Origin: a virus
Direction: 5' to 3' (one strand)
Length of the DNA: 64,000 bases
IMG/VR virus record: IMGVR_UViG_3300021178_000002
Span: 1-64,000 of that record
Shown: piece by piece, positions 10,940-62,672 of the stretch
Layout of the letters: each line of letters opens with the position of its first letter
Numbering within the stretch: position 1 is the stretch's first letter
Position numbers and translations under genes: made by a program
Notes under the pieces: model-generated
Database searches by the model: none
Seen by the model: only the letters and a program-made list of their open reading frames with translations
Told to the model about the DNA's origin: nothing

Positions 10940-11043
10940 CGTTCTGGGACTGGCTGCTGGTCGCGGCAGGCATCCTGCCACCAGTGATCCTCATCGGCTA
11001 CATGCTCTACAAAATCATCAAGGGAAGCGCAGAGATCGGTTGA
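10936..11043 (+). CDS. Tiny single-pass membrane protein, 35 aa
   Basis: GTG overlapping the phosphatase stop (GTGA). Nearly the whole chain is hydrophobic (FWDWLLVAAGILPPVILIGY) with a short Lys-containing end. Coupled translation and position suggest a membrane partner in the small-gene cassette before the terminase. Confidence 0.6.
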   Translation: MTFWDWLLVAAGILPPVILIGYMLYKIIKGSAEIG

Positions 11044-11059
11044 GGGGTAGGATGCGGCC

Positions 11060-11233: not shown

Positions 11234-11246
11234 GCTTCACAGCAGC

Positions 11247-12887
11247 GTGATCGACATCAACCAGCAACGGGATCCGATGTCGATCGCGGCTGACATCCTC
11301 GACAAGGGTTCGCAGTCGACGATCGAAGAGTTCTGCAATCAGGAACTCGGCGAGGAGATGTACTCCAAGCAGCGCGAGATTACGCAGTCGATCATCACCA
11401 ACCGGCGTACAGCGGTGAAGAGCTGCCACGCTGCCGGCAAGAGCTTCCTTGCCTCACGGGCTGCCGCCTGGTGGATCAAGTTCCACCGTCCCGGTGAGGC
11501 CTTCGTGGTCTCCACCGCGCCGTCCAACGACCAGGTCAAAGGCGTGCTCTGGAGGGAGATGAACCGGGTTCATAAGAAGGGCCACCTCGATGGCCACATG
11601 AACCAGACGGAGTGGTGGATCAACGACGAGCTGGTCGCATTCGGACGCAAGCCGCAGGACCAGGACCCTGGGTCATTCCAGGGCATCCACGCGCGGTACG
11701 TGCTGATCATCATCGACGAGGCCTGCTGGGTGCCAAAGGACCTCTGGATGGCTGCCGGCTCCCTTGCTGCCAACGCCAACTCGAGGATCCTGGCGATCGG
11801 CAACCCGGACGATCCCGGAAGCTATTTCTCGGAGGTCTGCAAACCAGGCTCAGGCTGGAACGTCATCCGCATCTCCTACCGCGACACACCCAACTTCTCA
11901 GGCGAGCCGGTCTCTTCACTGCTCAAAGAACTGCTTATCTCGGAGATCTACGTCGACGACATGCGCCATGAAGTCGGCGAGCAGGGGGCTCCCTTCATCT
12001 CCAAGTGCGAGGGCGAGTTTCCGACTGAGGCTGAGGATGCTGTGGTGTCGACCACCAAGCTGATGAACTGCATGCGTCCAGAGCAGTCCCACACGGCCAA
12101 GGAACTCACGCCTCACGAGTTGGGCTGGGACGTCGGCGCCGGCGGAGATAAGTCCGCGGTCAGAGAGCGCATGGGTGTCAAGGTTGGCCGCGTCTGGTAT
12201 CCCAAGGGCGGGGCTGACACCATGAAGCAGGTCGGCGAGGTCGTGAACATCATCAACCAGACCAAGGTCACCGCGATCAAGATCGACACCATCGGCGTCG
12301 GCCACGGAGCTGCTGACCGACTCGAGGAACTACGTCGTGAAGGGAAGCACAACGCCAAGGTAGTCAGAGTCAACGTCTCCACCAAGTCGACCAAGCCGCT
12401 CAAGTTCATGCGCCTGCGCGACGAGATCTGGTGGACGATCGGGCACCAGATGATCAACGAGGGAGTGCTCGATCTACACGGACTCGACGATGCCACCGTC
12501 GCTCAGCTGCTCTCCCCCAAGTATCAGCTCGACTCAGGCGGACGAGTCAACGTCGAGGCCAAAGACGAGACCAAGACACGTCTCGGACGTTCACCGGATG
12601 ACGCAGACGCACTGCTGCTCGCATTCTTCAAAGGATCCGGACAGGGATCAGCTTTTCAGGAGGCATGGCGCAAGCTTGCGGCCAAAGAGGCTGGAATGCC
12701 GGAAGCCCAACCGACGCAGCAGAGGATTGCTCATCCATCCCGCGTCTTCAGCATCATGCGAATTCCCCGCCGCGCTACACAGCGGGTGCTAACCCGGACC
12801 AGCTGCGAGCACCGCTTCCGAGGACCAACTTCGGGAGATCTGTGCGTTTTCTGCGGAACTACCAGAGAATTAGCGACAAAGCAGTGA
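11247..12887 (+). CDS. terL: Terminase large subunit
   Basis: 546 residues from a GTG at 11247 (ATG at 11277 is an alternative). The ATPase domain has Walker A SCHAAGKS (about residues 58-65) and Walker B VLIIIDEAC. The RNase H-like nuclease domain has GWDVGAGGDKS, IKIDTIGVGHGAADRL and RSPDDADALLL, supplying the expected acidic residues. Its role is to cut concatemeric DNA and pump it into proheads through the portal encoded next. Odd: the last about 60 residues carry CEHRFRGPTSGDLCVFC, a zinc-finger-like addition after the nuclease. No small terminase subunit was recognised nearby. Confidence 0.95.
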   Translation: MIDINQQRDPMSIAADILDKGSQSTIEEFCNQELGEEMYSKQREITQSIITNRRTAVKSCHAAGKSFLASRAAAWWIKFHRPGEAFVVSTAPSNDQVKGVLWREMNRVHKKGHLDGHMNQTEWWINDELVAFGRKPQDQDPGSFQGIHARYVLIIIDEACWVPKDLWMAAGSLAANANSRILAIGNPDDPGSYFSEVCKPGSGWNVIRISYRDTPNFSGEPVSSLLKELLISEIYVDDMRHEVGEQGAPFISKCEGEFPTEAEDAVVSTTKLMNCMRPEQSHTAKELTPHELGWDVGAGGDKSAVRERMGVKVGRVWYPKGGADTMKQVGEVVNIINQTKVTAIKIDTIGVGHGAADRLEELRREGKHNAKVVRVNVSTKSTKPLKFMRLRDEIWWTIGHQMINEGVLDLHGLDDATVAQLLSPKYQLDSGGRVNVEAKDETKTRLGRSPDDADALLLAFFKGSGQGSAFQEAWRKLAAKEAGMPEAQPTQQRIAHPSRVFSIMRIPRRATQRVLTRTSCEHRFRGPTSGDLCVFCGTTRELATKQ

Positions 12888-15800
12888 GCCCGACCGCAAC
12901 CAAAGACCTGCGCCGGAAGTCGAAGACGATCAAGGCGACTCCTGTGCGCAGGCCGACACGGACACCTCTCGCGCTACGCACACCAACTGAGCCGGTGAGA
13001 GTATCGATCGTTAAGCAGCCCTTCCAGCGCCGGCGCAAGTACAACGCCGAGTACATGGTCAAGGCGGTCAAGGTTGCGCTCCGGCCAGACGAGCTGACTC
13101 ATTTCCCTCAGAAAGAGCGCGAGATGATCAAGGCGGCAGCCGACAAGATTTCCCGCGGTGCCTCCATCCCTCCGTTGGGTGGCCGTGGCAATGGAGGTCG
13201 TGGTGCTGGGCCTCCGATGCCGGTCTCGGTGACGGTGCTGGCGCAGGAGGCGGCTCGCGCGTTGCGCCCGTCTTCTGGTACGACGCCAACAGACATCGAG
13301 GTCGCGCTCCGCAGGCAGGGGATCGATTGGGTTGAGCCATTTGCTCCCGGTCGACCGCTCACCCCTTACTACGGATACAACCGCCGCCTGCGTCAACAGG
13401 ACTACCGCGTCGGTCGCAACATCACCACCGATACCAGACCCGACCGCCTGCCCTTCAGTCTGCTCAAGCAGCTCAACGAGGGCTACGACATCGCGTCGAT
13501 CTGCATCCGCCACCTGATCAGCGACATGCGCGCCATGAAGCTCAGCTTCGGGCCGATGGACGACTACGACGGCGACGTCTCCAAAGAGATCCTGGTCGTC
13601 AAGCAGTTCCTGCGCAAGCCAGACGGCAACCGTCCGCTCCCGATCTGGCTGGCACAGTGGATGATGGACAACCTTCGCTACGACGCCGGCTGCCTCTATC
13701 GAGAGCGCAACGCAGCTGGCAAGCTGGTGGCTCTGAAGGTCGTTGACGGAACCACCGTGGCGCCGATCGTCGACTACTTCGGCGACCGTCCGATCCCGCC
13801 AGCGCCTTTCCTGCAGCAGTTCGTGCAGGGCATCCCGTGGGACTGGGCAACGACCGACGATGTGATCTATGAGCCGCACTGGCCGCTGCCCGAGAGTCCG
13901 TATGGCGTGGCTCCGGCGGAGACCATCATGCTCAACGCCAACACCGACGTTCGCCTCCAGCTCTTCTTCCTCCAGTTCTTCACCGCCGGCGTGGTGCCGG
14001 AGATGCTGATCGAAGCTCCCGCTGAGATGACCGACCCAGACGCAGTGGCCGAGCTGCAGGAAGACTGGGACAACTTCTACGAGTCCAACCAGACCGGACG
14101 CCACGGTGCGCACTGGGTGCCCGCGGGATCCAAGCCCCACCCTTACAAGCCGGACAAGTTCGACCCCAACCTGGCCGAATACGTAATGCGCCGCTCGGTG
14201 GCCGCATTCGGTCTGGTGCCGCAGGATCTCGGCTTCACGGAGACGGTCAACCGCTCCACCGCCGATGCTCAGGCGGACACGCAGTTCCGGATCTCCACGC
14301 TGCCCAACACCGAGATCTACGAAGCAATCCTCAACATGGTCATCCAGGACGACCTCGGCATGCCGGTGGAGATCAACTTCGACACCGGGCGAGAGAAGAA
14401 GGACCGCCTGATGGAAGCGCAGGCGCACAAGATCTACGTCGACATGGCGGCGGAGTCGCCGGACGAGGTACGCGACCAGATCCTCGGCCTGCCGGTAGAC
14501 AACGACGACCGGGTGCCTCGCTTCTTCAACTCGGAGAGGCTAGGAGTGATCCCGATCGCCTGGATCAAGTCTGTCTCTGGAATGATCGACCCGAGCACCC
14601 TCACGCCTTGGGGTCCTATTCCTCCGCAGCCATTCGTACCGATCGCCGGCCAGAAAGAGAACGTCCCACCGACGGAGCCGGAAACCCTACCGGACGGATC
14701 CCAACCCAAACAAGGCTCTACACCCAAGAAGTCAAAGCCGAAGGCAGCGGCTGCTGCTACCCCTGCGGCCCCGCTGCCCCTCCTTCCGGTCGGTACAAAG
14801 CTGCCACCGAACACCGCGGTGAACAAACCAGGTCTTCGGGCTAAGGACACGCACGAGCAGGTCGGTGAAATGCACACCGATCCGGAAGGACGAATTGATC
14901 CGGCTGGACGCCACGGAGAGCCGACCGTCAAGCTTGAAGGCGCAGCTGCACGCAACGAGTATCGAGTCGACGACGGCGGCAGGAGAGACACACCCACGGC
15001 TGGAACCACCGAAGGATCTCGTGGGCCACGACAGCCTCAGGGATCCTCCGCCCCGGCGCGCACCACTCCACCGCGGCGAGCTGCATCAGGAAACGCTGCT
15101 CAGAAGGAGGCGACAGCCGGTATCACCACTCCGAGCGCGATTGCCGGCATCGACCAGGACGGAGAGGATGACGACGATGACGCTCGAGGTATGACTGGAG
15201 CTGTCAAGCGCTTCCGGACGACGCACGAGAGCGACCTCTACGACCCGTCCGACCTTATGGAGTTGTCTTCTCCAAATCGCTTGACCGCAGAAGACCCGAA
15301 GGATGCAGAGCGCGACGACCTCGCCGACGACATGGAAGACAAAGCTGATGAGCTTCGTGCTGACCCACCGGGCAACCACCCGCTGTCAGATGCAGCTCGT
15401 AAGGACATCGCGCTCTGGCGCGGTGTGGCGCGCAAGAAGGCCAAGGACAAGAAGCCGCAGCGCAGCTTCGATTCAACCGTGATCGATCCTGGACTGCACG
15501 AATACATCCACACCAAGCTCCAGAGCGCGGCCTCGAGAGAGGACGTCGACAAGATTTTCGATTCAGTGTTGTCGCCTCGACCACCGAACCCTAAGCCTGA
15601 GCCGATGGACGTGCATCGGATCAACGGATTGGCTCTGCGCGCCGGCGACACCGGACGGGTCCTCATGCTGCAGCGCGCTCTGACGCAGGGTGACCCGGCA
15701 GCTGGGATGTGGGAATTCCCCGGTGGCCACAAGAACTACAACGAGACGGACGAGCAGGGAGCTGTTCGTGAGTGGCAGGAGGAGACCGGGATCTTCCTGC

Positions 15801-16075
15801 CCAAGAAGGCGCAACTCTTCTCCTCATGGCAAAGCTTCAACGGGCGCTACATCGGCTGGGTCTTCGAGATCCCGAAAGAATCGCACTTGAAGATCGACGG
15901 CCGCGAGGATGTCAAGAACCCCGACGGCGACTGGTTCGAGGCGGTGGCGTGGTTCGATCCTCGAGACCTCGCCAACCATCCCGGGATCCGGCCTGAATTG
16001 AAGGCAGACATCGCAGCTGTGCAGTCGGCATTGGCCTGGCCGCGCAAGAAGGCGGAAGTCGGAAACCTCGAGTAG
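12884..16075 (+). CDS. Portal protein with C-terminal NUDIX hydrolase domain
   Basis: 1063 residues from the GTG at 12884 (GTGA overlap with terL). Residues about 1-650 are portal-like: the DVRLQLFFLQFFTAGVVPEM stretch, RRSVAAFGLVPQDLGFTE, and NRSTADAQAD followed by a late basic region. Residues about 650-900 are a low-complexity Pro/Ala/Asp-rich linker and a conserved-looking helical segment. Residues about 908-1060 form a NUDIX domain with a perfect box Gx5Ex7REUxEExGU at 948-970 (G948, E954, R962, E963, E966, E967). Portals form the dodecameric DNA gateway. NUDIX enzymes hydrolyse nucleoside diphosphates linked to other groups. No stop codon or slip separates the parts, so this reads as a genuine fusion. 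Confidence 0.9.
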   Translation: MSPTATKDLRRKSKTIKATPVRRPTRTPLALRTPTEPVRVSIVKQPFQRRRKYNAEYMVKAVKVALRPDELTHFPQKEREMIKAAADKISRGASIPPLGGRGNGGRGAGPPMPVSVTVLAQEAARALRPSSGTTPTDIEVALRRQGIDWVEPFAPGRPLTPYYGYNRRLRQQDYRVGRNITTDTRPDRLPFSLLKQLNEGYDIASICIRHLISDMRAMKLSFGPMDDYDGDVSKEILVVKQFLRKPDGNRPLPIWLAQWMMDNLRYDAGCLYRERNAAGKLVALKVVDGTTVAPIVDYFGDRPIPPAPFLQQFVQGIPWDWATTDDVIYEPHWPLPESPYGVAPAETIMLNANTDVRLQLFFLQFFTAGVVPEMLIEAPAEMTDPDAVAELQEDWDNFYESNQTGRHGAHWVPAGSKPHPYKPDKFDPNLAEYVMRRSVAAFGLVPQDLGFTETVNRSTADAQADTQFRISTLPNTEIYEAILNMVIQDDLGMPVEINFDTGREKKDRLMEAQAHKIYVDMAAESPDEVRDQILGLPVDNDDRVPRFFNSERLGVIPIAWIKSVSGMIDPSTLTPWGPIPPQPFVPIAGQKENVPPTEPETLPDGSQPKQGSTPKKSKPKAAAAATPAAPLPLLPVGTKLPPNTAVNKPGLRAKDTHEQVGEMHTDPEGRIDPAGRHGEPTVKLEGAAARNEYRVDDGGRRDTPTAGTTEGSRGPRQPQGSSAPARTTPPRRAASGNAAQKEATAGITTPSAIAGIDQDGEDDDDDARGMTGAVKRFRTTHESDLYDPSDLMELSSPNRLTAEDPKDAERDDLADDMEDKADELRADPPGNHPLSDAARKDIALWRGVARKKAKDKKPQRSFDSTVIDPGLHEYIHTKLQSAASREDVDKIFDSVLSPRPPNPKPEPMDVHRINGLALRAGDTGRVLMLQRALTQGDPAAGMWEFPGGHKNYNETDEQGAVREWQEETGIFLPKKAQLFSSWQSFNGRYIGWVFEIPKESHLKIDGREDVKNPDGDWFEAVAWFDPRDLANHPGIRPELKADIAAVQSALAWPRKKAEVGNLE

Positions 16076-41667: not shown

Positions 41668-44066
41668 CCCTTCCACTTCTCCGTCGTGCCCCATCTCTCA
41701 CCGACTTCGATCTCGACGTCGAACGGGACGTCGGTCTTAAGCAGAGTAGAGCCGGTCATTGTCCGATAGATCTGGTACAGCACGTCGTCAAGGATCTCCT
41801 TGCGGACCTCGAAGTTGATCGAGTCGTGGATCGGGAAGAGAACGTAGGCGCCTTTCGGTAGCTGATCGTGGAGCTTGATCATGGCGTCCAGGCAGATGTC
41901 AGAGGCGGTGCCCTGGATCGGGAAGTTGGCAGCCTCGCGGCCGACGGCATTGCCAGCTCCAGGTGGAATGAATGGCCAGCGTCGACGTCTCCCGAGAGGG
42001 GACTCCACGTACTGGTTCTTGAGCGCGAAGTTCTTGGTCAATTCAATCCACTGCTTGAGCTTGGGGAACCCGTTGAGGAACCGGTAGAGAAACAGCTCAG
42101 CCTCCTCGATCGACCACCACTCGGCATCAGGATCCTTGTACTCCAGCTCGGCGCCCTCGACCAGCGACTGCGGACTGCGGCCGTAAATGATGCCGAAGTC
42201 AACGTGCTTGGCCATCACCCGTTCGGCCTTGGTGACAGCCTCAGCCGGCTTCTTGAAGATCATCGAGGCGACCTCTGTGTGTATATCGCGTCCGGTCCTG
42301 AAGACCTCCTGCATCTGCTCATCGCCAGCGATCACCGCAGCGACACGCAGTTCCAGCTGAGAGTAGTCGGCGGCCACCCAGACATATCCGGGCGAAGGGA
42401 TGAAGGCGTTGCGGATGGCCGGTCCCATGAGAAGCGGGATATTCTGGATGTTGGGGGCGGCTGACGACAACCTCCCCGTCGCCGTCCCTAGAAGTTTGAA
42501 GTCGGACCGGAGCCGTCCATCGCGGCCAAGAAGATTGAGGATCTTATCGATATAGGTGGCCATGATCTTCTTGAGCAAGCGCAGCTCGACGATGTCGTTC
42601 AGCCCCTGCTTGATCACCGGATCGGTGGCCCGCTGAGAGAGCCCGAAGAGGATGTCCTTGGCCGTGGAATCCTCCGGCATCTCCATCGCCCGTTTGCCTG
42701 CCAGGTGAGGCTTGGGAGCCTTCCAATGCGTGTAGATGAGCTTGCTCAGCTGTGGTTGCGACTGCGGGTTGAACTTCTCCATCCCGAACTCAGCAGCCAA
42801 CGCTTGGATCGAAGCATTCTTTTCCTCGATCTTGGCCTGAGTAGTGACCTTCAGCTCCTCGAGGTATGGGCGATCTATCTTCACCCCGTGCAGCTCCATC
42901 TCTGCCAACGTGTAGGTCGCCGGCATGAGCAAGCTGTAGAACAAGGACGCCAGGCGAGGCGACTGCTCGTCCATCTTGGTGCGAAGGTCGCGCTTCAACT
43001 TCGAGGTGTAGCCGAGGTCGAGCGACTGGTACGCGTAGAGAGCCTGGAGGCGCTCCGTGCCCAGGCCCTGGGTGAAGTCGAAGTCGTAGTCCTCGGCGTC
43101 GTAGTGGATCCGGGCCTGTGTCTTCAGACCGTGAGACTTGTACTTGCTGAATGGACGCTCGTCCAAGGTGTAGTGCATGACCATGCAGTCGACCGCGTGA
43201 GGTCGGATGCGCTCGCCGAAGTAGGCGTCTAAGAACTGAATGTCGAACTTGGCGTTCCAGAGCCCGAACTCGCCCCCGTAGGTCTCGGTAAAGAACTGCT
43301 TCAACAACGCTTTCACAGCTGGGACCTTGAGCAGGAGGGGACTGATGATCACGCCGGCGTCGTCGTTGCCGATGCCGCAGCTGACGATGCGATGGACCAT
43401 CGGGTTGTCACCTGTGGTCTCAACGTCGATGGTGAGATCACGACGGTCCATCATCTCGAACAGGTAGCGCTCTGCTGTGGCCAGCGATCCGGGAACGACG
43501 TAGTCGACCTCGAGGTCGGGCAGCGGGGAGGAGTACTCGGTCCACTTCACGATGTCGGCGGCGAAGTCGCGGAAGTATTCAGCATCACGCAGGACGGCCG
43601 CCGGGTGGAAGGTGGGCAGCGTGTAAACCAGCCGCCCACCCCACTCCGTCCACACACCACGGCCGTGCCAGCGCGTGATCGGCATCGCTTTGTCGGCTCG
43701 CAGGACGGCAGTTAAAGCAACGCCGCCGACGGTGAGGATCTTGGTCGGCGCGACAAGCGCCAGCTCCTCCTCAAGCCGTGGGCGGCACCCTCTAATCTGT
43801 GCGATCCCCGGCGTCTTGTTACCAGGTGGATGGCAAAGCACCGTGTTGGTGTAGAAGATCTCCTGGTCGTCGACGCCGGCCTGCCGCAGGACAACCCTCA
43901 GAAGACGGCCGGCCTGCCCGACGAACGCCTGCTTGCGCTGGACCTCGGTGTTGCCCGGAGCTTCTCCAAGAATGAGCAGGCCGTCACCAGGACCGTAGCC
44001 CTGGACGGTCGGTGAGTCCTTGAGTGGACACTTCTCACAGCGGCTAGGGAGCAGAGACCGGCTCAC
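41664..44066 (-). CDS. Uracil-DNA glycosylase fused to DNA polymerase I
   Basis: 800 residues from the GTG at 44066 (GAGGAATCAG upstream). Residues about 1-165: family 4/5 UDG with CEKCPLKDS, LLILGEAPGNTEVQRKQAF, CHPPGNKTP, a fourth Cys in RGCRPRLEEEL (4Fe-4S set) and TFHPAAVLRD. About 190-390: 3'-5' exonuclease with DVETTG, NAKFDIQFL and a YQSLD motif, all catalytic acids kept. About 400-800: polymerase motifs A DYSQLELRV, B KHVDFGIIYG and C HDSINFEV. No 5' nuclease domain. The replicative polymerase of the phage, with a built-in uracil-removal activity. Confidence 0.95.
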   Translation of the reverse strand: MSRSLLPSRCEKCPLKDSPTVQGYGPGDGLLILGEAPGNTEVQRKQAFVGQAGRLLRVVLRQAGVDDQEIFYTNTVLCHPPGNKTPGIAQIRGCRPRLEEELALVAPTKILTVGGVALTAVLRADKAMPITRWHGRGVWTEWGGRLVYTLPTFHPAAVLRDAEYFRDFAADIVKWTEYSSPLPDLEVDYVVPGSLATAERYLFEMMDRRDLTIDVETTGDNPMVHRIVSCGIGNDDAGVIISPLLLKVPAVKALLKQFFTETYGGEFGLWNAKFDIQFLDAYFGERIRPHAVDCMVMHYTLDERPFSKYKSHGLKTQARIHYDAEDYDFDFTQGLGTERLQALYAYQSLDLGYTSKLKRDLRTKMDEQSPRLASLFYSLLMPATYTLAEMELHGVKIDRPYLEELKVTTQAKIEEKNASIQALAAEFGMEKFNPQSQPQLSKLIYTHWKAPKPHLAGKRAMEMPEDSTAKDILFGLSQRATDPVIKQGLNDIVELRLLKKIMATYIDKILNLLGRDGRLRSDFKLLGTATGRLSSAAPNIQNIPLLMGPAIRNAFIPSPGYVWVAADYSQLELRVAAVIAGDEQMQEVFRTGRDIHTEVASMIFKKPAEAVTKAERVMAKHVDFGIIYGRSPQSLVEGAELEYKDPDAEWWSIEEAELFLYRFLNGFPKLKQWIELTKNFALKNQYVESPLGRRRRWPFIPPGAGNAVGREAANFPIQGTASDICLDAMIKLHDQLPKGAYVLFPIHDSINFEVRKEILDDVLYQIYRTMTGSTLLKTDVPFDVEIEVGERWGTTEKWKG

Positions 44067-44388
44067 CTGATTCCTCTTCGAGGACCTCCATGATGGCAAC
44101 CGCCACCGCAGCGCAGTGGAGCGCCTCCTTCATCCGTGCCTCAGGTGTTTGCCGCTCGGGCTCATCGTCCCTGAGGACTGTCCTGGCCAGCTCACCGACC
44201 TCTTCGCTCAGCACCGCATGCCAGATGAGTAGACGCTCCTCGAGCGGGCGGGTCATGTCCCGCTCAGGAGCAGTCGCGTGCTTGACATCCTGCCGTGAGC
44301 GCTCGGCGGCAATCTTGCCAAACGCTCGGTACATGGACGGAGGAAGGAACCGCTTGCGGTTCTTCCAGTGGAACGACGGAAAGTCCAC
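44044..44388 (-). CDS. MazG-like nucleotide pyrophosphohydrolase-like protein
   Basis: 114 residues from a GTG at 44388 with GGAGG upstream. The helical pattern ERLLIWHAVLSEEVGELART, then EALHCAAVAVAIMEVLEEE, matches the phage MazG-like family that hydrolyses (d)NTPs to monophosphates. The EEVGE motif and downstream acidic helix supply metal ligands. Next to polymerase and Mom-like genes it may clean or shape the nucleotide pool. Confidence 0.7.
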   Translation of the reverse strand: MDFPSFHWKNRKRFLPPSMYRAFGKIAAERSRQDVKHATAPERDMTRPLEERLLIWHAVLSEEVGELARTVLRDDEPERQTPEARMKEALHCAAVAVAIMEVLEEESGEPVSAP

Positions 44389-44390
44389 GC

Positions 44391-44951
44391 CTATCCTCCG
44401 ATATGCTGCCAGCGACGGGCGATGTCTCGACGCGCCCGGTCAGTCAGCCCCTTAACGAACCGAAATTTCCCAGGCACCTTGACCTCTTTGAACCCGAGCG
44501 CCTCGATCGCCGCCTTGTTCAGGTGGGTTGACCCGGCGTGGAATTTGCGCCTCGCAACAATTCGCCCATCCTGATCCCTGTACCCTCGCGCCTCCTCGCT
44601 TTGGCCCGTGTAAATCCACGACGCCGCCCGGTAGACGCCGCCCTTGTGGCCGGCGTTCGGATCGGCGAAGGACACCAGGGCCTCTACGGTCGGCTCGTCC
44701 TTCCTGAAGCCCCGTACAGCCTTGGCGATAGCGCGAGTCAGCAGATCGGGTGCGTGGCCGTCAGGGGCCCAAAGACGGGTCAGCTCCCACACCTTCCCCT
44801 CGCGTCCCAGGACGAACTTGGCAAGGTAGGGGTTGGCTGGGATTGAGAACAGCACGATCGCATCCTCGAACACGTATTCCCGCGTCTTGCCCGAGGGTAG
44901 GGAATGAGTGTAGTGGTGGCGCAGGATATCCTCGCGGGTCGGCGAAATCAC
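44391..44951 (-). CDS. Mom-like DNA base modification enzyme
   Basis: 186 residues from a GTG adjacent to the upstream stop. AIVLFSIPANPYLAKFVLG, then VWELTRLWAPDGHAPDLL and ALVSFADPNAGHKGGVYRAA match the Mu Mom family (GNAT-like fold), including the SYADP/GHxGxVYxA-type core. In Mu, Mom turns adenine into N6-methylcarbamoyl-adenine and protects DNA from restriction. The basic C-terminus (FVKGLTDRARRDIARRW) could bind DNA. No Com-type regulator was recognised. Confidence 0.8.
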   Translation of the reverse strand: MISPTREDILRHHYTHSLPSGKTREYVFEDAIVLFSIPANPYLAKFVLGREGKVWELTRLWAPDGHAPDLLTRAIAKAVRGFRKDEPTVEALVSFADPNAGHKGGVYRAASWIYTGQSEEARGYRDQDGRIVARRKFHAGSTHLNKAAIEALGFKEVKVPGKFRFVKGLTDRARRDIARRWQHIGG

Positions 44952-45137
44952 TTAGCCCGCCTTATCTGCGAGAGTCACGGCCTCGTCCAGTTCCGTCAGC
45001 CCTTCACCGATCCGAGCCTTTAGGTACGGCTGCGCCTTGTCTCCGGGCGAGAAATCATCAGCCTGCCTTCTGGCGTAAACGATCTTTCGGGCAGCGGCGT
45101 ACACGCGATCTAGCGCCTTCACTCGCTCACTTTCCAT
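44952..45137 (-). CDS. Small charged helical protein, 61 aa
   Basis: ATG at 45137 behind AGGAGCG. Largely helical with alternating basic and acidic stretches (VYAAARKIVYARRQADDF, IGEGLTELDEAVTLAD). Immediately upstream of the Mom-like gene; a regulatory partner is possible but there is no Cys motif like that of Com. No family recognised. Confidence 0.65.
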   Translation of the reverse strand: MESERVKALDRVYAAARKIVYARRQADDFSPGDKAQPYLKARIGEGLTELDEAVTLADKAG

Positions 45138-47913: not shown

Positions 47914-48741
47914 TTACGATGCTTTCCTCCGTGAACGTGTGGTGGTAGTTGCAGCAGCGGCCGCAACGGGTTCCGGCTCTGGCTCCTTGTCCTCCTGTGG
48001 TGCTACCTCCTCTTCCTCTTTCTTGGCGAAGCCGAGTACATCGAGCAGTGATCCGACGGTCGGGTCATCGATGTAGTCCGGGACTGCGTCTTCCTGCCCC
48101 CATGGCGTGCGGGTCTTCACGCGGAATTGCGCGAAGTTCTTGAGCAGCAGCGATCGTACATCGCGTGTGGTCTTGTCGGGGAGGATCTCAGTAGAGATGG
48201 TGAGGTAGCCGCAGACGTCGAACATCCCCGGCGCCTCGTCAGCCATCTGACCGGACAGCGCAGGCTTCTTCACGTTGCCCACGCGCGCCTCGCGGTCGGA
48301 CTTGTCCTGCGAGGTGGCGATGAAGTGGTACGGCAGGTCGCGGAAGGCTCTGATCAGGCGGCGCATCTGGATCGAGGCCTTGCCGTAGTCCTGGATCTCG
48401 AGCTTGTCCGGGTCGCGTGAGCTGGAGACCTCGGAGAGGATCTCCATGAGGGCGAAGATGTGGGTCTCGGAGAGGGAGTCGAGCAGGATCGTCTTGTAGC
48501 CGCCCTCCCCCTTGGCTAGTCCAGCGTAGATCTCGTTGAAGTCGTCCCAGGTCCGCACCTTGGCCATGTCGATGTCGAGTCCGGCCAGCGTTTGCTCGCC
48601 ACCCTCGAAGTCGAGGTAGAGCGCCGGCGAGGTGCGTTCATCCTCCTGAGCTGAGCCCAGGAAGTGCGTTTTCCCGGAGCCGTAAGGCCCAAAGATGAGC
48701 GCTTTGAGGTACGCGTTCTGTCCAGGTTTGGTGATGTTCAA
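47914..48741 (-). CDS. Sak4-like RecA-fold recombination ATPase
   Basis: 275 residues, TTG start behind AAGGAGGACAC. Walker A GPYGSGKT (residues 18-25), acidic FEGGEQ-like switch, Walker B TILLDSLSETH. It then has YHFIATSQDKSD, typical of Sak4 single-strand annealing/recombinase ATPases. The C-terminus is Glu/Pro/Ala-rich. With the DUF669-like gene it forms the phage recombination module. Confidence 0.8.
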   Translation of the reverse strand: MNITKPGQNAYLKALIFGPYGSGKTHFLGSAQEDERTSPALYLDFEGGEQTLAGLDIDMAKVRTWDDFNEIYAGLAKGEGGYKTILLDSLSETHIFALMEILSEVSSSRDPDKLEIQDYGKASIQMRRLIRAFRDLPYHFIATSQDKSDREARVGNVKKPALSGQMADEAPGMFDVCGYLTISTEILPDKTTRDVRSLLLKNFAQFRVKTRTPWGQEDAVPDYIDDPTVGSLLDVLGFAKKEEEEVAPQEDKEPEPEPVAAAAATTTTRSRRKAS

Positions 48742-49136: not shown

Positions 49137-49258
49137 GGCAGAAGGTGGTAGTAGCCGAGGATGAGGCCCAGCATCAGTCCGCCGCAGAAGCCGGAGAACG
49201 TATAGAACAGCGCCAGCTTGACCATCAATGACCGCGGGATGTAGAGGAACTTGCTCAC
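49133..49258 (-). CDS. Small membrane protein, 41 aa
   Basis: GTG in a GTGA overlap with the nuclease stop. Hydrophobic segment LFYTFSGFCGGLMLGLILG after a short basic start. Single-pass membrane peptide of unknown role. Confidence 0.55.
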   Translation of the reverse strand: MSKFLYIPRSLMVKLALFYTFSGFCGGLMLGLILGYYHLLP

Positions 49259-50322
49259 AGCCGCTTCTCTGCAGAGACGGTGAACCTGGCCTTGATCATG
49301 TCCTCGTAGTCTGAGCCATCGTTCATGGCCAGGCAAACGTCGCGGAATGGACAGCGTGGACAACGCATAGGATCTGGTGAAGGGTAGGCCTTGCGAGGAT
49401 CCTGCGCAACCGTCCGCATGTCCTGGAACGTGTAGTAGAGATCACGCTCGTAGGCCTTGATCTGCGCTAGGTTGCGGGTGGTGACCTCCCGCTTGAAGTA
49501 CTTCGACCAGGCCTGCTCCTTCAGCTGGGCCAGGATGTCGGTGTAGTCCTTAGGGTCGAGGTTCATCTCTCGCAGAGCCTGTGTGTACAACTCGAATGTG
49601 GTGCCCTGATCCTTGTCCTTTGAAAGCAACGGAGGATCGCCCTGCTTGCGCGGCTTGAGCACTCGTGGCTCGTTAGGGATCCGCTTGAGCAGCGTGTCGT
49701 AGATCATGCCCTGAGGTAGGTAGCCGCGGATCCGCCAGTACTCGTAGTGGTAGCCGGTGGTCTGCTCGTCCAGCTCGAGGTTGCGGCCCTCTGTCCAGGC
49801 CCGGGTGCTGTTCTTGTAGTCGACGATCCACTCTCCATCTCGTCCGTTCATGACGACCAGCCGGTCCATTCTGGCACTCAGCTGAGGCAGTCCCTTGAGC
49901 GCGCGGCCGCCGGGATTGTGGATGGGGACGAAGAGACGCTCCTCAAGTGATGTCGTCTTCAACTTCATGCCAGTCGAGCGGTCGAAGATGGCGTAGTTGT
50001 GGAGCATCCCGCGGCCGAGAATCACCAGCTCCTGAAACATGGGAGCCATGTCAGCCCAGAAGCCGCCGAAGCCTTGCTCCAGCTCGGGGATGCTGGCATT
50101 GCAGGCTTCGTTGAAAGCAGCGATCGCTTTCTCGACATCGCCCGTGCCGGCCAGCACTTGAAGACCGATGTGCATCTTGTCGCCGAACCAGAAGTAGTCG
50201 GTTGGAACCTTGGGAACAAGCCCACGGATCTCACCGAGATACCACGCGCGCCGACACTCTTTGAACTTCTCGACCTCGGTCACGCGTACGACCTCGAGCC
50301 GATGGGGAACGGTCACGCTCAC
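49255..50322 (-). CDS. Cas4/RecB-like iron-sulfur PD-(D/E)XK nuclease
   Basis: 355 residues, GTG start in a GTGA overlap with GGAGGACA upstream. The first Cys (FKECRRAWYL) and a C-terminal CPRCPFRDVC give four Fe-S ligands. The middle holds ARMDRLVV and IVDYKNS (PD-(D/E)XK catalytic Asp, Lys). This is the Cas4/AddB-type exonuclease family. In phages it probably resects ends for Sak4-mediated recombination or replication restart. Confidence 0.85.
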   Translation of the reverse strand: MSVTVPHRLEVVRVTEVEKFKECRRAWYLGEIRGLVPKVPTDYFWFGDKMHIGLQVLAGTGDVEKAIAAFNEACNASIPELEQGFGGFWADMAPMFQELVILGRGMLHNYAIFDRSTGMKLKTTSLEERLFVPIHNPGGRALKGLPQLSARMDRLVVMNGRDGEWIVDYKNSTRAWTEGRNLELDEQTTGYHYEYWRIRGYLPQGMIYDTLLKRIPNEPRVLKPRKQGDPPLLSKDKDQGTTFELYTQALREMNLDPKDYTDILAQLKEQAWSKYFKREVTTRNLAQIKAYERDLYYTFQDMRTVAQDPRKAYPSPDPMRCPRCPFRDVCLAMNDGSDYEDMIKARFTVSAEKRL

Positions 50323-50696
50323 TTTTGTCCTCCAAATTTGTCTTGGGCCCACCGCGTCATGCGATAGGCATCTTTTTCGTGCTGGGTCTTCAATACACCA
50401 CGCTCCGGCAGCGGGTGATGCCCGAATCGTGGCATCCAGTCGGCGGGCCGGATGACCTTCACTTCCACAGCTGCATAGAGCACACGCAGCGAGTGGATCT
50501 CCGCTTCATAGCGTTCCTGGACGTCGGGCCGTTCTCGATATGCCGGCCGCTCGATGACGACGAGGTCGACCGCCGGCACCAGCGCCTTGATCGAATAGGC
50601 CTGACCGAGTGGCACTGTTCCATGCAGGCTGAGTGCGTGGTCCCAGAGGCAGGCGTAGCCGATGGTATGCCCGAGGTCGATGGCCAGGATCTTCAC
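50319..50696 (-). CDS. RuvC-like (RNase H fold) resolvase
   Basis: 125 residues from a GTG in a GTGA overlap. VKILAIDLGHTIGYACLW matches the first RuvC strand with its Asp, VVIERPAYRERPD the second acidic position, and QHEKDAYRM the C-terminal one. Short for RuvC, but phage resolvases often are. Expected to cut Holliday junctions before packaging. Confidence 0.75.
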   Translation of the reverse strand: MKILAIDLGHTIGYACLWDHALSLHGTVPLGQAYSIKALVPAVDLVVIERPAYRERPDVQERYEAEIHSLRVLYAAVEVKVIRPADWMPRFGHHPLPERGVLKTQHEKDAYRMTRWAQDKFGGQK

Positions 50697-51134: not shown

Positions 51135-51929
51135 TCAGACCTTCCAGTACGGCGTGATCCACTCGCCGTCAGCGTTCACTGAGTAGTCGGAGAAGAGCAT
51201 CGGAGCCCACTCCTGCATGATCTCGGCCACCTTCGAGAAGACCAGGCGGATCTCCTCCTCGGCGTCCTTGGCGGTGCGCATGGAGATGACGTGGCGCAGA
51301 GTGCGCACGTTGGCCGTCCAGACCATCGACGTCGACAGCCCGAGCGGCGCCAGCCGACGCAGGGCTGAGGTCACCTGCTTCTTGTAGGGCATGGGCAGCC
51401 CCTCCTCGTCCAGCTTGAAGACCTCGGCCGCCTGCTTCTGGAACGTCTCCAGGGCCTCGACGATGGTCACCACCGATGGACGCAGAGGCTCTAAGTACGG
51501 CGGGATCCGAAAGCCGATGTCGGTCAGCCGGACGTAGCGAAGGCTCTCTTGAGAGATGGCCACGCCGGCGCGGTGGCGAACAAGCTCGTGGGTGAAGACC
51601 CGCGAGACGTCCTCGAAGATGAAGCTGTAGTTGGCGTGCTCGAGCACCGATCCGTGTCCAACCCTGAGGATGTTGAGCAGGTAGCCTGCGCTGTCCTCGC
51701 GAACCATCGTCACGTTGGGGTTAAGCCCCGGCGCCCACGAGCGGTAGCAGATGCGACCGGCCGCTTCAACTAGCAGCTCGCCGTCAGTCATCTTGGATCG
51801 GGGGATCCCGACGCCAGCCATCCGATCTGCCCAGGCATCGCCTCCAACCGAGCGCACGTACTTCATCAGGTCGGTGTAGTGGATCGCCGGCGATGCGATC
51901 AGATGCACCTTCGGAAATGTCTCTCTCAC
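51135..51929 (-). CDS. thyX: Flavin-dependent thymidylate synthase
   Basis: 264 residues, GTG in a GTGA overlap with the helicase stop. The ThyX signature RHRAGVAISQESLRY (RHRX8S form) is present, plus GHGSVLEHANYSF upstream and SALRRLAPLGLSTSMVWTAN downstream. Makes dTMP from dUMP with FAD, NADPH and methylene-tetrahydrofolate, raising thymidine supply during replication. Consistent with the polymerase-UDG pairing that handles dUMP. Confidence 0.95.
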   Translation of the reverse strand: MRETFPKVHLIASPAIHYTDLMKYVRSVGGDAWADRMAGVGIPRSKMTDGELLVEAAGRICYRSWAPGLNPNVTMVREDSAGYLLNILRVGHGSVLEHANYSFIFEDVSRVFTHELVRHRAGVAISQESLRYVRLTDIGFRIPPYLEPLRPSVVTIVEALETFQKQAAEVFKLDEEGLPMPYKKQVTSALRRLAPLGLSTSMVWTANVRTLRHVISMRTAKDAEEEIRLVFSKVAEIMQEWAPMLFSDYSVNADGEWITPYWKV

Positions 51930-53692
51930 GCTTGTCCTCCTCGTAAATGTCTGAGCATGGTCGCCAAGTCGTCGTTGGAGACCTTGCTGATGCCCGGGAA
52001 CTTGCCGCTCAGATTGTCTTCGACCAGCTGGTCGACGGTGCCGACCGCTTTGATGGTGATCACCACCGGCCTGTGATCTAGGCCCATCCGTTTGACCCGT
52101 CTCATCGACTGCACGTAGTCGTCGGCGAACCAGGTCTTGTCGTGGTAGATGACGGTGTGCGTCATCTGCAGGTTGTGGCCCATCTTGCCGACCGGCATGG
52201 CGAGGATGAGGATGTCGATGTTGCCAGCCTTGTAGGCCTCGAACTTCTCTTCGTTGTCGGCATCGTCGCGCTTGCTGGTCGCACCGTGGATCCACTCGAT
52301 TCGATGCCGGTCATCCTTGTGCTTACGGGCTGACTCGGAGAGTCTTCTCCAGAGCGCGTCGGCACCTGGGAGCCACTGCGTCCAGATGATGGTCGGCGTG
52401 TCGAAGGCACGCGTCTCATACAGCTCGACGATGACGTCGGCCTTGATCGATTCGTCGTTTGGGTCGATGTACTTGGTGCCCTTCTTCGGTTCATCACCCG
52501 GACCGGCGATGTTGACCAGGTTGCTGGTGATCTGCTGCAGACGGATCAGCTGTGAGAGCACAATCGGAGCCTTGATCTCCCTGCCCGACTCGAGCGTGGT
52601 GATGAAGTCGGTGGCCATCTCGTCATAGGCCTTGAGCTGCTTGGGTCGCAGCTCGACCTCGATCAGCTGCGGGATCTCCTCCGGGAGCTGGTCGAGGACG
52701 TCCTTCTGATTACGGACAAACATGACGTCCTTCAGGTTGCCAATGATGTCTACGTTCTGCCGAGTGCCGGTGACCTCGGTTCCCCAGACGTCTTGAGTGA
52801 CGTAGCAAACCCGGTTGGTAAAGCGCCAGTAGGAGTTGAAACCTCGTGGATCCTGAAGGTGCAGCTGAGCCCACAGGTCGTCGGCGTACTTGGTGACTGG
52901 GTATCCTGACAACTCCCACCAGTGCTTCTGCTTCTTCGGGAAAGCCTTACGTAGCTCGAGCAAGCCGAGGTAGCGGTGGCTGTGTCGGTTCTTGACCAGC
53001 ACTGACTCATCGAGGATGACCAGGTCCCAGTCGACGGCCATGTACTGCTTCAGCCGCGGGCCGAGGTCGACGACCTTGCCCCTCTTGTCGACAACTACCT
53101 TGTCGACCACGGTGTCGTAGTTGGTCAGTGTCCACCACTGCTCAGACGGAGGTAACCCGTGACGCCGCTCCATGGCGGTGTCTCCAAACCACTTGTCCTC
53201 TTCGTTCTCCCAGCTGCGGAGAAGAGACTTCGGAGCAACGATGAGCACCTTCTTCAGTCCGAGTAACCTGGCGGCCGTCAAAGCGACGACCGTCTTGCCA
53301 AGGCCCGGAGAGAGCGCGATCAGACTGGTTGTGTGCGGTCCGTGGATGAGACGGTAGACCGCCTGCCGCTGGAACCAGTAGAGCTGCTGATAGACCAGCT
53401 TGAGAATAGGATCCCAGCCACCGCCTACCGGTTCTGCTGCCAGCTCATCGCTCATGCTCAGAGCATCCGAGGCGGCTTCTGAAATCTCCAGATCGGGAAG
53501 CTGCTCGACCACTGTCTGGGCATAGATGAGGTATGGGGGAAGCTTCCAGAAGCTGAGCTTCTTGTCCCACGAACCTGCTGCTAGATCTCCGATCCAGCTG
53601 TCCTTGGAAAACGGTGCGTGGAGGATGAAGTTGTCACCGTCGAAGTCGAGGACAGTGGTGATCTTGCGCGGGATGGTGATCCGATAGCTCAT
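51926..53692 (-). CDS. SNF2-family helicase-like ATPase
   Basis: 588 residues, ATG at 53692. Motif I SPGLGKTVVALTAARLL, motif Ia VLIVAPKSLL, motif II VILDESVLVKN, motif III ELSGYPV and a second RecA domain with HGATSKRDD, LAMPVGKMGHNLQ and QSMRRVKRMG (motifs IV-VI). SNF2/DEAD-type enzymes of phages aid replication-fork restart or recombination. An N-terminal about 110-residue extension precedes the helicase core. Confidence 0.85.
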   Translation of the reverse strand: MSYRITIPRKITTVLDFDGDNFILHAPFSKDSWIGDLAAGSWDKKLSFWKLPPYLIYAQTVVEQLPDLEISEAASDALSMSDELAAEPVGGGWDPILKLVYQQLYWFQRQAVYRLIHGPHTTSLIALSPGLGKTVVALTAARLLGLKKVLIVAPKSLLRSWENEEDKWFGDTAMERRHGLPPSEQWWTLTNYDTVVDKVVVDKRGKVVDLGPRLKQYMAVDWDLVILDESVLVKNRHSHRYLGLLELRKAFPKKQKHWWELSGYPVTKYADDLWAQLHLQDPRGFNSYWRFTNRVCYVTQDVWGTEVTGTRQNVDIIGNLKDVMFVRNQKDVLDQLPEEIPQLIEVELRPKQLKAYDEMATDFITTLESGREIKAPIVLSQLIRLQQITSNLVNIAGPGDEPKKGTKYIDPNDESIKADVIVELYETRAFDTPTIIWTQWLPGADALWRRLSESARKHKDDRHRIEWIHGATSKRDDADNEEKFEAYKAGNIDILILAMPVGKMGHNLQMTHTVIYHDKTWFADDYVQSMRRVKRMGLDHRPVVITIKAVGTVDQLVEDNLSGKFPGISKVSNDDLATMLRHLRGGQA

Positions 53693-53871
53693 CGCTTCCG
53701 ACTCAGCATGAGAGAGACGGCGATTGACACGTAACACACGACGAAGATCACACTGCCGGCGATGATCAAGACGGTTCCCCACCCTGCCTCCACCACAATG
53801 CGATCAAGAAAGAAGGCGGCCAAAGCGAGGAATGGAACTGTGAGCATTGTGCATCCGATTCGGTTCCTCAT
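53689..53871 (-). CDS. Small membrane protein, 60 aa
   Basis: ATG at 53871 (MRNRIGCTMLTVPFL). Two hydrophobic segments (about residues 8-22 and 32-55, VLIIAGSVIFVVCYVSIAV). Placed between helicases in the replication operon. Role unknown. Confidence 0.6.
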   Translation of the reverse strand: MRNRIGCTMLTVPFLALAAFFLDRIVVEAGWGTVLIIAGSVIFVVCYVSIAVSLMLSRKR

Positions 53872-54439: not shown

Positions 54440-54666
54440 GATCTCTCCTTTGCCATGTTGGCTAACAATCCGATGACGTAAAGGACGGCGATGGTTCCTA
54501 CCACGATGTAAGCGACGACCGCCCAGAAGTGTGGGAAGAGCGAAGCTGGGGCAGCAATGATGAAGAGCAGCAAGAGGACGTTCCCACATCCCCAGCAGCC
54601 GCCTCTGTTCTCGGTTTTGACGACGGTCTTCGAGCCGTCAGAGTTGGTGATGGTAGTCGTTTTCAC
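54436..54666 (-). CDS. Small membrane protein, 76 aa
   Basis: ATGA-coupled. The N-terminus is polar with CWGCG; residues about 28-68 hold two hydrophobic segments (VLLLLFIIAAPASLFPHFW, VAYIVVGTIAVLYVIGLL). Unknown function. Confidence 0.6.
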   Translation of the reverse strand: MKTTTITNSDGSKTVVKTENRGGCWGCGNVLLLLFIIAAPASLFPHFWAVVAYIVVGTIAVLYVIGLLANMAKERS

Positions 54667-56141
54667 TGGTTGATCCAGCCGAGCCCGCCCAGGTCGAGCT
54701 GCAGCTTGGCCCGCGTCACGGTGACGTAGGCGAGGCGGGTCTCCTCCTGAGAGAACTTGAAGGTGGGCGACTCCGGGTCTCGCATGAAGTCAGGACCGAC
54801 GCGTACCGACTCCCACTCCCGACCCTTGGCCTTGTGCGCCGTGCTCACGGTGACGTCCGCCACCGATTCCTCGGCGAGGTTGTCGACGATGGTGATCACA
54901 CCCTCCGCGGTGTAGGTGTCGATCAGGTTGACGAAGACCCTGAGATCGGATCCGGCGCGCTCGTTCTGCACGAACTCCTGGACCTCGTGCCAACTCTTGA
55001 AGAGCATCAGCTCGCGGTGGCTGGTTGACTGGCCGTTCTGAAGCTGGATGGCAGCTCGAGCCAGCGCGATCAGCTCTCGGCCGTTGCCGACCAGTGCTGC
55101 CTTGAGCCCCTGTCCCTGTGCGTAGATGACCTCGGCCAGGGCACCGGCGTTGGAGCGGCATAGGATGGCGCGCGGCTGTTCGATGGGACCGACCACCGAC
55201 TCGAGCTTGGTGTTGCCGGTGATGCGGAACTCCCCGAGCTTGGCCAGCCATCGGTTGGCCTCGTCGGCGATCGCTGGACCGAAACGGAACGACTGGGAGA
55301 GAGGCAGACGGCGGCCTTCGAAGTCGTCCATGGCATCGACGGCGCCCCGCCAGGCGTAGATCTGCTGTGCCGGGTCTCCAACCAGGATCTTCTGAGCGTT
55401 GTACTGGTTCTTGATGATGGCCGCGATCACGGGGTTGGCGTCCTGCGCTTCGTCGAGCAGGATGAAGTCAGCCGGAAGCTGGACGCCCGAGAGGTGCCAC
55501 ATCTTCAGGTAGTGGTCGTGCTCGAAGCGCATGCGACCGCCGTCCACCAGGTTGACGTCGTCCCAGATCTGGCGGGCATAGGGAAGCACCCTCTCGGCGA
55601 CAGCCTTGTTCTGCTTGCGTGAGAGCTTGATCTCCCAGGGCACATGCTCCAGGGAGATGAACTCGTCGGCTGACCAGCAGAAATTCTGCACGGTGTCGCC
55701 GGCGATGGTGGCAAGGTGCTTGGGCTCAAGCGAGGCCCGTGTGAACCTCTCACCCTTCTCCTCGTCCTCGTCGAGCAAGATGCCGGTCATGCCAAGCATC
55801 TCGGCCACCCGCCAGGATGGGACACGGGAGTCCGTCAGCCTGGACTGGAACTTGAAGCCCACCGCGCGGAAGGCGAGCGAGTGGGCAGTTGAGCAGTTCA
55901 CGTTGGGCGGGAAGGTGCCTTTGGCATCGGTGGCGATCGCCTTGTTGTAGGCGATGTAGAAGCCGCGGCGTGGAGCCAGCGCGCGTCCGATCATGCGCTG
56001 GGTCGAGGTCTTCCCGGAGCCTGCGCCGGCGACCACCACCAGGTCCCCACCAGTGCGCGCGGCACCGATGATGGCAGCCTGCTCGTCGGTCGGCTTCAGC
56101 TGCGGCGTGGCGGTCGGGAACTTGACGTGGATTTCTGGCAT
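54663..56141 (-). CDS. UvrD/Rep-family DNA helicase
   Basis: 492 residues, ATG behind AGGAGGACAGA. Motif I VVAGAGSGKTS, motif Ia-like STAHSLAF, motif II FILLDEAQDANP, motif III VGDPAQQIYAWRG, motif IV SQSFRFG, motif V VTVSTAHKAKG and a motif VI region RLAYVTVTRA. A superfamily-1 3'-5' helicase, shorter than host UvrD. Likely works in replication or recombination. First gene of the leftward replication operon, starting at the divergent junction. Confidence 0.9.
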   Translation of the reverse strand: MPEIHVKFPTATPQLKPTDEQAAIIGAARTGGDLVVVAGAGSGKTSTQRMIGRALAPRRGFYIAYNKAIATDAKGTFPPNVNCSTAHSLAFRAVGFKFQSRLTDSRVPSWRVAEMLGMTGILLDEDEEKGERFTRASLEPKHLATIAGDTVQNFCWSADEFISLEHVPWEIKLSRKQNKAVAERVLPYARQIWDDVNLVDGGRMRFEHDHYLKMWHLSGVQLPADFILLDEAQDANPVIAAIIKNQYNAQKILVGDPAQQIYAWRGAVDAMDDFEGRRLPLSQSFRFGPAIADEANRWLAKLGEFRITGNTKLESVVGPIEQPRAILCRSNAGALAEVIYAQGQGLKAALVGNGRELIALARAAIQLQNGQSTSHRELMLFKSWHEVQEFVQNERAGSDLRVFVNLIDTYTAEGVITIVDNLAEESVADVTVSTAHKAKGREWESVRVGPDFMRDPESPTFKFSQEETRLAYVTVTRAKLQLDLGGLGWINQ

Positions 56142-60645: not shown

Positions 60646-60870
60646 CTACACCCGCTTCTTCAATTTGGTACGTCCAATAAGGATTCGGTGCCGACGCCGT
60701 TCTCGCCAGGTTCTACGTTCGGTCCAGAAGTCGCGCGGCGGTTTGTGGAAGTGGGTGAACTGCATCATGCGTGTGTAGTGCTTTGACGGCCAGGAGATGC
60801 CATACGCCTCACGGGCCGCCTCTACCACCATGCCGGCGAGAAAGAGCGTCATGAGCAGCTGGCCGATCAA
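60646..60870 (-). CDS. Small membrane protein with basic tail, 74 aa
   Basis: TTG at 60870 in a TTGA overlap with the HerA-like stop; ATG six codons later is an alternative. Hydrophobic start (IGQLLMTLFLAGMVVEA) and a strongly basic C-terminus (FWTERRTWRERRRHRILIG). Layout of a pinholin or a membrane-anchored DNA-binding peptide; near the endolysin, so a holin is plausible. Confidence 0.55.
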   Translation of the reverse strand: MIGQLLMTLFLAGMVVEAAREAYGISWPSKHYTRMMQFTHFHKPPRDFWTERRTWRERRRHRILIGRTKLKKRV

Positions 60871-62672
60871 AGGAACACCACCGCGCTGGCCTCGAGGCCC
60901 TGACGGTTGCCACGGACAAGTCCCATCGTGCGCAGGATACTCACGTTGTTGGCAAAGCCTGAGCTGGTAGGCGACTGTCCAGAGTGGCGCGCCACGGTGT
61001 CCCATCCTGCAATGGTCGGTGAGCCGCTACTGGTGAGGTAGCGCAGGATGCGCATCTGCGGGGCTGTGATCTTGCCGGCGATCGCTCTGAGCAGGTCTTC
61101 GGTGGTCAGCGGGACGTCGGGTGCGGTGGCAGCTCGGCGGCCGTTCTCCGTGAGAGCTAGTCCACCGGACTTGTTGCCCTCGAGGAGACCCCCGACGCGG
61201 AGAACGCTCACGTTGTTGGCGAAGCCGGAGGACTTCGGCGACTGCAGTGCGAGCACGGCGATGAGTGTCCAGTGCGAGCCTCGTTGGCCAATCGATTCCA
61301 TCCACGCCAGTGCATCCAGGATGCGCTGCTGAGGAGGTGTCAGTTCATTCGTTGGCGTACCGCGGGTAGACACCTTTGAGATGTCGATCATGCGGAGAGC
61401 TTCACTCTTTCCGTGCTTCGGTGGAACGCCCACGAAGGCTGTGCCGCTCTTCGCAGGCGGCCAAGTACTCACCGCTGGGCCGGTTGAAAGGACGGCCTCG
61501 GCCAAGTCACCGAGGGCATCAGCCTTCGTGATGGTCTGGGTCTGCGTGTCGAGTTTCAGTGTGATGCGGCCCTTGGTGTCCTTCATGAACGAGTCCCACA
61601 GGCGCTGCAGCTCATCCCAGTCCGGTTCGACCAGTTCGTGGACGGTCTGCATCTGGATCTTCGGCGGAACATTCTCGAGCCTGGTGATCTCCACCGCGTA
61701 TTTCTGGGCGAGGTCAGCGAACTCGTCCAGCTGACGCTGCAGCTCGATGATCTTCCTACGCAGCTCCTTCGGGTCGTCATGCTTGGCGTGATCGATCACA
61801 GACTGCAGCTGGCCGGAGATCTTCTGCAGGTCGACGCTGCTCAGTGTCTTGGGCGTGATCATCTTTTCGCCCACCTTGGGTGTGGCCGCCGAGTCGAATG
61901 TGTGCCGCCGGCGGATGAAGTAGCGGTTGAGGAGCTTCAGCCACTCTGGTGACCAGATGTAGGCCTCACCGTCCCTGAGATGCGGCAGCTCGCTGAGAAT
62001 CTTGTCGCGCTCCTCTTTGGTGCCGTGGAACTTGATCCACTCCTCGATGGCGTCGCGGTCCTGAGGGCCGATGGTGCGGTGCGCGATCAGCGTCTCGGCC
62101 TGGGTGGTCGTGTTCTTGTTGATGGCCGCCGAGCGCTGGGAGATCGCTGTTGCGCCGATGCCGTCCATGCGGCCCCAGCGGATGAGCCGGTCGGTGGCGC
62201 CAAGCATCTTTGCCTCATCGGGCTGCGGCCTCTGAGGGATGAAGGCGTCGGCCTCCTCGAGGAAGACGTGGACGGGGACACGATCGTTGTGGTTGAGCAG
62301 GTAGGTCACGAAGTCGGTGACGAAGCGGGAGCGGTCGGCGACCGACCAGCCCTTCATCGACAGGATCATGGAGATCCGGTGCTCGATGAACAGCCGTGCC
62401 ATCAACTCGCCGGTGTGCGGGTCGAGCGGGAGATCAGGATGCCGGCCGCCAAATACGTAGATGTTGAGACCGGGCTGATCTCCTGCGAACGACGATTTGA
62501 GTCCCCACCAGGCGTCGATGGGGTCCAGGACCACAATCGGTGCCAGCTTGATCATCTCTTCGGCAAGCACGACCGCAGTGTTGGTCTTGCCCGAGCCGCG
62601 CTTGCCGAGGATCAGAAAGGTCTGGGTGACCGCGTCGTTGGGCAGCTGGAGTTTCTCTGCGAGCTTTATCAC
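60867..62672 (-). CDS. HerA/FtsK-type ATPase with duplicated C-terminal domain
   Basis: 601 residues, GTG in a GTGA overlap with the NADAR gene. Walker A LGKRGSGKTN (about residues 22-31), Walker B VHVFLEEADAF, and the HerA-like AISQRSAAINKNTTTQAETL, then IAHRTIGPQDRDAIEEWI. A coiled middle (about 290-345) follows, and two related C-terminal winged-helix-like units, each with SGFANNVSVLR / SGFANNVSILR. HerA hexamers move DNA with a nuclease partner or act in antiphage complexes. No NurA, Sir2 or DUF4297 gene is beside it here. Confidence 0.8.
   Translation of the reverse strand: MIKLAEKLQLPNDAVTQTFLILGKRGSGKTNTAVVLAEEMIKLAPIVVLDPIDAWWGLKSSFAGDQPGLNIYVFGGRHPDLPLDPHTGELMARLFIEHRISMILSMKGWSVADRSRFVTDFVTYLLNHNDRVPVHVFLEEADAFIPQRPQPDEAKMLGATDRLIRWGRMDGIGATAISQRSAAINKNTTTQAETLIAHRTIGPQDRDAIEEWIKFHGTKEERDKILSELPHLRDGEAYIWSPEWLKLLNRYFIRRRHTFDSAATPKVGEKMITPKTLSSVDLQKISGQLQSVIDHAKHDDPKELRRKIIELQRQLDEFADLAQKYAVEITRLENVPPKIQMQTVHELVEPDWDELQRLWDSFMKDTKGRITLKLDTQTQTITKADALGDLAEAVLSTGPAVSTWPPAKSGTAFVGVPPKHGKSEALRMIDISKVSTRGTPTNELTPPQQRILDALAWMESIGQRGSHWTLIAVLALQSPKSSGFANNVSVLRVGGLLEGNKSGGLALTENGRRAATAPDVPLTTEDLLRAIAGKITAPQMRILRYLTSSGSPTIAGWDTVARHSGQSPTSSGFANNVSILRTMGLVRGNRQGLEASAVVFL

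Follow-up and report, generated by a model that had tools for sequence, protein, structure and literature searches.

The product of phage Mu Mom is N6-carbamoylmethyl-adenine, and in the Mu com-mom operon the start of mom is overlapped by Com, a zinc-finger translational activator. Mu Mom is reported to be a CoA- and iron-using enzyme (acetyl-CoA, Fe2+/3+) that modifies the DNA of its own phage so that the DNA resists restriction (PMC10002423), and a further account describes it as protecting Mu DNA (PMC6483171). A Mom domain with a proposed role in adenine N6 modification has also been described in jumbo phages, where its usual form is a fusion with a restriction-type nuclease (PMC7824862); the domain is shared with the protein considered here, which differs in being stand-alone. 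Mu Mom itself (PDB: 8bv8; Pfam PF25680) has its family, its GNAT fold and its conserved residues in common with this protein, from which it differs in sequence (~24% identity) and in a serine that is replaced by Thr72.

The DNA under study, called the window below, comprises 64,000 nucleotides of a 67.8-kb uncultivated virus record in which a single Mom match was found. The features of the locus are presented in Table 1. The mom ORF is intact and its GTG start abuts the in-frame stop codon of the preceding ORF. The original prediction of a Mom-type gene was borne out, since all of the motifs it had quoted (VLFSIPANPY, VWELTRLWAP, FADPNAGHKG and VYRAA) are present and the protein matches both Pfam Mom (E = 2.3e-23; 83.4 bits, the cut-off being 27.1; residues 8–180 on profile positions 15–196 of 202) and PHROG 1384, 'Mom-like DNA modification protein' (nearly full length, E = 3.3e-31). 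The only significant sequence match in the PDB is Mu Mom 8bv8, with a phmmer E-value of 1.8e-6; a profile built from 51 relatives reaches the same entry at 7e-29.

Table 1. Features of the mom locus and the surrounding replication genes (window coordinates).
Feature	Position	Strand	Evidence
Family-A DNA polymerase with a uracil-DNA glycosylase fused to its N terminus (UDG-PolA), 811 aa	41664..44099	-	PF03167 E 4e-23 (residues 38-176), PF00476 E 2e-88 (412-804)
MazG-like ORF of 114 aa that follows mom after 2 bases	44044..44388	-	Pfam MazG E 0.5, below cut-off; PHROG 2831 E 7e-12
mom, Mom-family protein, 186 aa, GTG start, GNAT fold	44391..44951	-	Pfam, PHROG, structure model
Thr72 codon, opposite the Mu Mom serine mutated in 8bv8	44736..44738	-	Profile and pairwise alignments
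Small ORF, 61 aa, stop codon abutting mom start	44952..45137	-	No significant family match (Pfam, PHROG)
Sak4-like ssDNA-annealing ATPase	47914..48741	-	PHROG 124 E 1e-42
Exonuclease	49255..50352	-	PHROG 1218 E 7e-34
Thymidylate synthase	51135..52295	-	PHROG 85 E 5e-42, residues 130-372
DNA helicase	51926..53782	-	PHROG 62 E 2e-79
Replicative DNA helicase	54663..56141	-	PHROG 1967 E 1e-91

An AlphaFold2 model of the window Mom, calculated from an alignment of 51 Moms (the window protein and those from viral contigs), had high confidence scores (pLDDT = 95, pTM = 0.87). Its top match among solved structures is 8bv8, entitled 'phage Mu protein Mom inactive mutant S124A'. The E-value of this pair in Foldseek is 7e-10, the next GNATs following at about 1e-3, and VIA gave a Z-score of 16.7 (rmsd 3.7 over 177 residues) against 11.6 for the next GNAT. 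Judged by its sequence and its predicted structure, the gene is a true and intact Mom-family GNAT, and at that level the enzyme class is demonstrated.

The conserved residues of Mu Mom (H48, Y49, E98, R101, S136, D139 and Y149 in the 231-aa numbering) all have conserved counterparts in the window protein. H13, Y14, E56, L57, R59, S94, A96, H102, G104, Y107, A109, W112 and G116 are invariant both in the 28 subfamily members compared and in 23 other Moms, and in the alignments this set extends to Mu Mom with the exception of W112 and H102. A comparison of six Moms, Mu included, found E56, L57, R59, S94, A96, D97, G104, Y107, A109, G116 and R174 to be identical. In 8bv8, the second serine of 'NSESRAI' is changed to alanine relative to wild-type Mu Mom; thus, S124 of the entry title corresponds to residue 114 in the 231-aa numbering. 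The position opposite this serine, Thr72, is the most interesting departure of the window Mom from Mu Mom. It is threonine in 27 of 28 subfamily members and serine in the other, while among the remaining Moms serine predominates (20/23, with threonine in 3/23). Since threonine keeps the hydroxyl, activity is plausible. Two further residues are specific to the subfamily: Ser111, a position occupied by asparagine in all 23 other Moms, and His138.

Arthrobacter and Microbacterium phages carry Mom-like proteins (PHROG 1384) that belong to the same family and are ~31% identical to the window Mom along almost all of its length. Unlike the window protein, they have serine at the Thr72 position, asparagine at Ser111 and a loop that is two residues shorter. 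Their genes also adjoin one encoding a ParB-like nuclease domain, which the window mom does not. Such a gene was seen directly before a Mom-like gene in records L003 (5408-6564) and L004 (4460-5612) and may be a partner of another Mom branch. An upstream activator resembling Com was considered for the window mom and rejected: the ORF that precedes it contains no cysteine, and so is not a Com-type zinc finger, and it has no significant family match.

Hundreds of relatives came up when viral contigs were queried with Moms in general, and only 4 of the best 80 were more than 44% identical to the window protein. These four relatives and the window Mom made up a second, subfamily query, which retrieved 38 uncultivated IMG/VR contigs at 49–62% identity, a tightness that is partly built in by searching with the subfamily's own motifs, though the identity gap had been noticed earlier. 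The mark of this group is the motif RLWAPDGH; its signature residues are as in the window, and its polymerase gene order varies. The proteins are compact, about 185–215 aa, and are without the long N-terminal extension of Mu Mom. In a maximum-likelihood tree, the subfamily and the window protein formed one group on a long stem with 100/100 support. Close pairs gave dN/dS values of 0.04–0.19, which indicates purifying selection on mom within the subfamily.

No member of the subfamily was detected in 50,697 phage records, where the best identity to any Mom was 38%, or in 72,556 plasmids, where it was about 32%. Two pattern-based scans of 84,980 species genomes likewise detected none, although divergent members could escape scans of this kind. 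When a 24-kb part of the window was compared with phage records by megablast, no match emerged. Scanning the viral contigs with the window Mom alone, as a single protein, also returned nothing, whereas the alignment queries did find relatives. By its sequence, then, the window Mom belongs to a distinct, strongly supported and so far uncultured Mom subfamily.

The genomic setting provides a contrast to Mu. While Mu mom is a late gene located by gin and com at the genome end, the window mom lies near the polymerase in a replication block between positions ~41 and ~56 kb. The named genes of the block are all on the minus strand and comprise the helicases, thymidylate synthase, exonuclease, Sak4-like ATPase, mom, the MazG-like ORF and UDG-PolA. 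The N-terminal part of the thymidylate synthase ORF overlaps a helicase ORF and may not be translated. A terminase and a portal gene (11–16 kb) are on the plus strand. The portal is encoded in a 1136-aa ORF (12665-16075, plus strand) in which the portal region (residues 243–610) is joined to a C-terminal MutT/NUDIX hydrolase (981–1110), an apparent portal-NUDIX fusion. The window also has two terminase large-subunit ORFs, at 11247-12887 (plus strand) and 60867-62672 (minus strand), which match the families PHROG 2 and PHROG 2666; it is likely that just one of them is the packaging motor.

Among records that reach 20 kb or more, a family-A polymerase was found in 16 of the 20 from the subfamily, counting the window, but in only 1 of the 21 with other Moms (Fisher p = 7e-7, a value that overstates the case since related phages are non-independent samples). 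From distances computed from contig coordinates, ten subfamily records, about seven of them distinct, place the polymerase within ~1.3 kb of mom on the same strand, often as the adjacent gene. Its position varies from upstream to downstream to distant, and these differing orders suggest a repeated association. Other neighbors of mom in these records likewise serve replication and include genes for an exonuclease, an Enc34-type ssDNA-binding protein and SNF2-type helicases. Thus, the subfamily mom tends to sit in the replication block, with the polymerase itself as a recurrent neighbor.

Several individual records merit description. In L123, a C5-cytosine DNA methyltransferase (7507-9174, Pfam E = 2e-36) shares the replication block with the subfamily Mom. 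In L007, the polymerase adjoining mom (8525-11260) seems by inspection to carry an intein, with an insert running from CFGRDTRVL to IAHNC, and an HNH endonuclease ORF (9880-10647) lies inside the polymerase gene in another reading frame. In L121, the ORF just before mom (4986-5414, 142 aa) contains the Mom-like stretch 'RHYSRR' and has no Pfam match.

The original prediction placed mom beside MazG-like and polymerase-UDG genes and supposed that base modification, pool control and uracil removal may be linked. The UDG-PolA fusion is solid by Pfam, but the designation 'MazG-like' is weak: the Pfam score is 11.1 bits against a cut-off of 22, and the best PHROG (2831) has no known function. The ORF has an ExxE motif (EVGE) and lacks the second metal motif, ExxD; it may still be related to the MazG superfamily. 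By inspection, GEAPG and HPAA motifs are present in the UDG part together with four cysteines, as in the iron-sulphur (family 4) UDGs. A DNA-quality system of three parts, with Mom acting jointly with the MazG-like protein and the UDG-polymerase on the nucleotide pool and base identity, would fit the arrangement of their genes, which follow one another on a single strand and are separated by short gaps. It would also accommodate records L109 and L121, where a UDG-PolA fusion lies on the strand of mom within ~5.5 kb and ~1.3 kb of it, respectively. The subfamily speaks against this arrangement. None of the 38 records has a MazG-like homolog adjoining mom (one weak match lies ~13 kb off), the window alone has a MazG-like gene between mom and the polymerase, and a UDG occurs in only 3 of the 38. 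A scan of the viral contigs with the MazG-like protein gave one relative (34% identity), and a scan with UDG-PolA as a single protein gave no match. In cultured phages, matches begin within the UDG part and run through the polymerase; UDG-PolA fusions occur in other phages regardless of Mom. With the missing ExxD motif, these counts leave the functional linkage unsupported and a three-part system very improbable. As a conserved unit, the three genes were rejected, because the linkage is not kept across the 38 records.

Two other readings concern the Mom protein itself. A GNAT acetyltransferase acting on a protein, a tRNA or a small molecule would suit the fold, and many acetyltransferases are found among the weaker structural matches; moreover, the Microbacterium and Arthrobacter phage relatives were deposited as 'acetyltransferase', a label that many phage records carry. 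Against it, Mu Mom stands well above every other GNAT both by sequence and by structure, and the Mom-specific invariant core is retained, which makes such an activity unlikely. Less probable again, and indeed the least probable of the readings considered, is a modification-restriction pair, in which unmodified DNA is attacked by a nuclease of the phage and Mom shields the phage itself. Although such a pair has been proposed for the Mom-endonuclease fusions described in some jumbo phages (PMC7824862), the window Mom is a stand-alone domain of 186 aa, no PADLOC defence model was matched among the neighbors of mom that were tested, and the sole nuclease found by family in the replication block is a recombination-type exonuclease.

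The preferred reading, at a probability of roughly 0.75, is that the window gene encodes a Mom-type enzyme for N6-adenine modification of phage DNA against restriction, with Thr72 in place of serine and probably acting from mid-infection. By analogy with Mu, a CoA-using GNAT of this type would attach a small amide group (carbamoylmethyl in Mu) to adenines of its own phage's double-stranded DNA, at the N6 amine, and many restriction endonucleases would then no longer cut that DNA. The common Mom core consists of the invariant His13-Tyr14, Glu56, Arg59, Ser94, Asp97, His102 and Tyr107. The ELxR strand is followed by a helix that begins with Thr72, whose hydroxyl would replace the serine needed by Mu Mom. 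In Mu, modification is late, before packaging; with mom inside the replication block, it would here probably start with replication, a timing suggested by the position of the gene. The expectation in the original prediction that adenine is modified against restriction is therefore the best that can be drawn from a true Mom-family GNAT, with the chemistry taken from Mu. We infer substrate, product and protection from that phage; most likely, the window protein carries out the Mu reaction, or one close to it, on the DNA of its own phage.

At ~24% identity to Mu Mom and with a change at the essential-serine position, the transferred group could nonetheless differ, or activity could change. A more distinctive version, in which a Mom subfamily separate from the others and confined to uncultured phages works alongside replication and modifies adenine as the DNA is copied, and in which threonine for serine together with Ser111 and His138 may mean a group other than carbamoylmethyl, appears rather doubtful. 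An indirect check for restriction avoidance was uninformative, with six-base palindromes at 0.97 of expectation. Among four-base palindromes, CTAG is the most avoided in the window (1-64000), at 0.41 of the Markov expectation.

The Mom family was already known. The window gene is confirmed as a member of it, and what is new, from sequence comparisons and gene positions, is that its distinct subfamily is uncultured, departs naturally from Mu at a key residue and has its setting in the replication block. The chemistry of Mom is an old puzzle, and the case for it is based mainly on one phage. A compact subfamily with a natural serine-to-threonine change (27/28) at a position essential in Mu offers new enzymes for work on the mechanism. 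If the proteins of this subfamily do not protect DNA, the Mom annotation on hundreds of phage records will need correction; if they do, they would enlarge the set of enzymes by which environmental phages modify bases and counter restriction. The recurrent placement of mom by the DNA polymerase suggests that Mom modification need not be only a late step before packaging.
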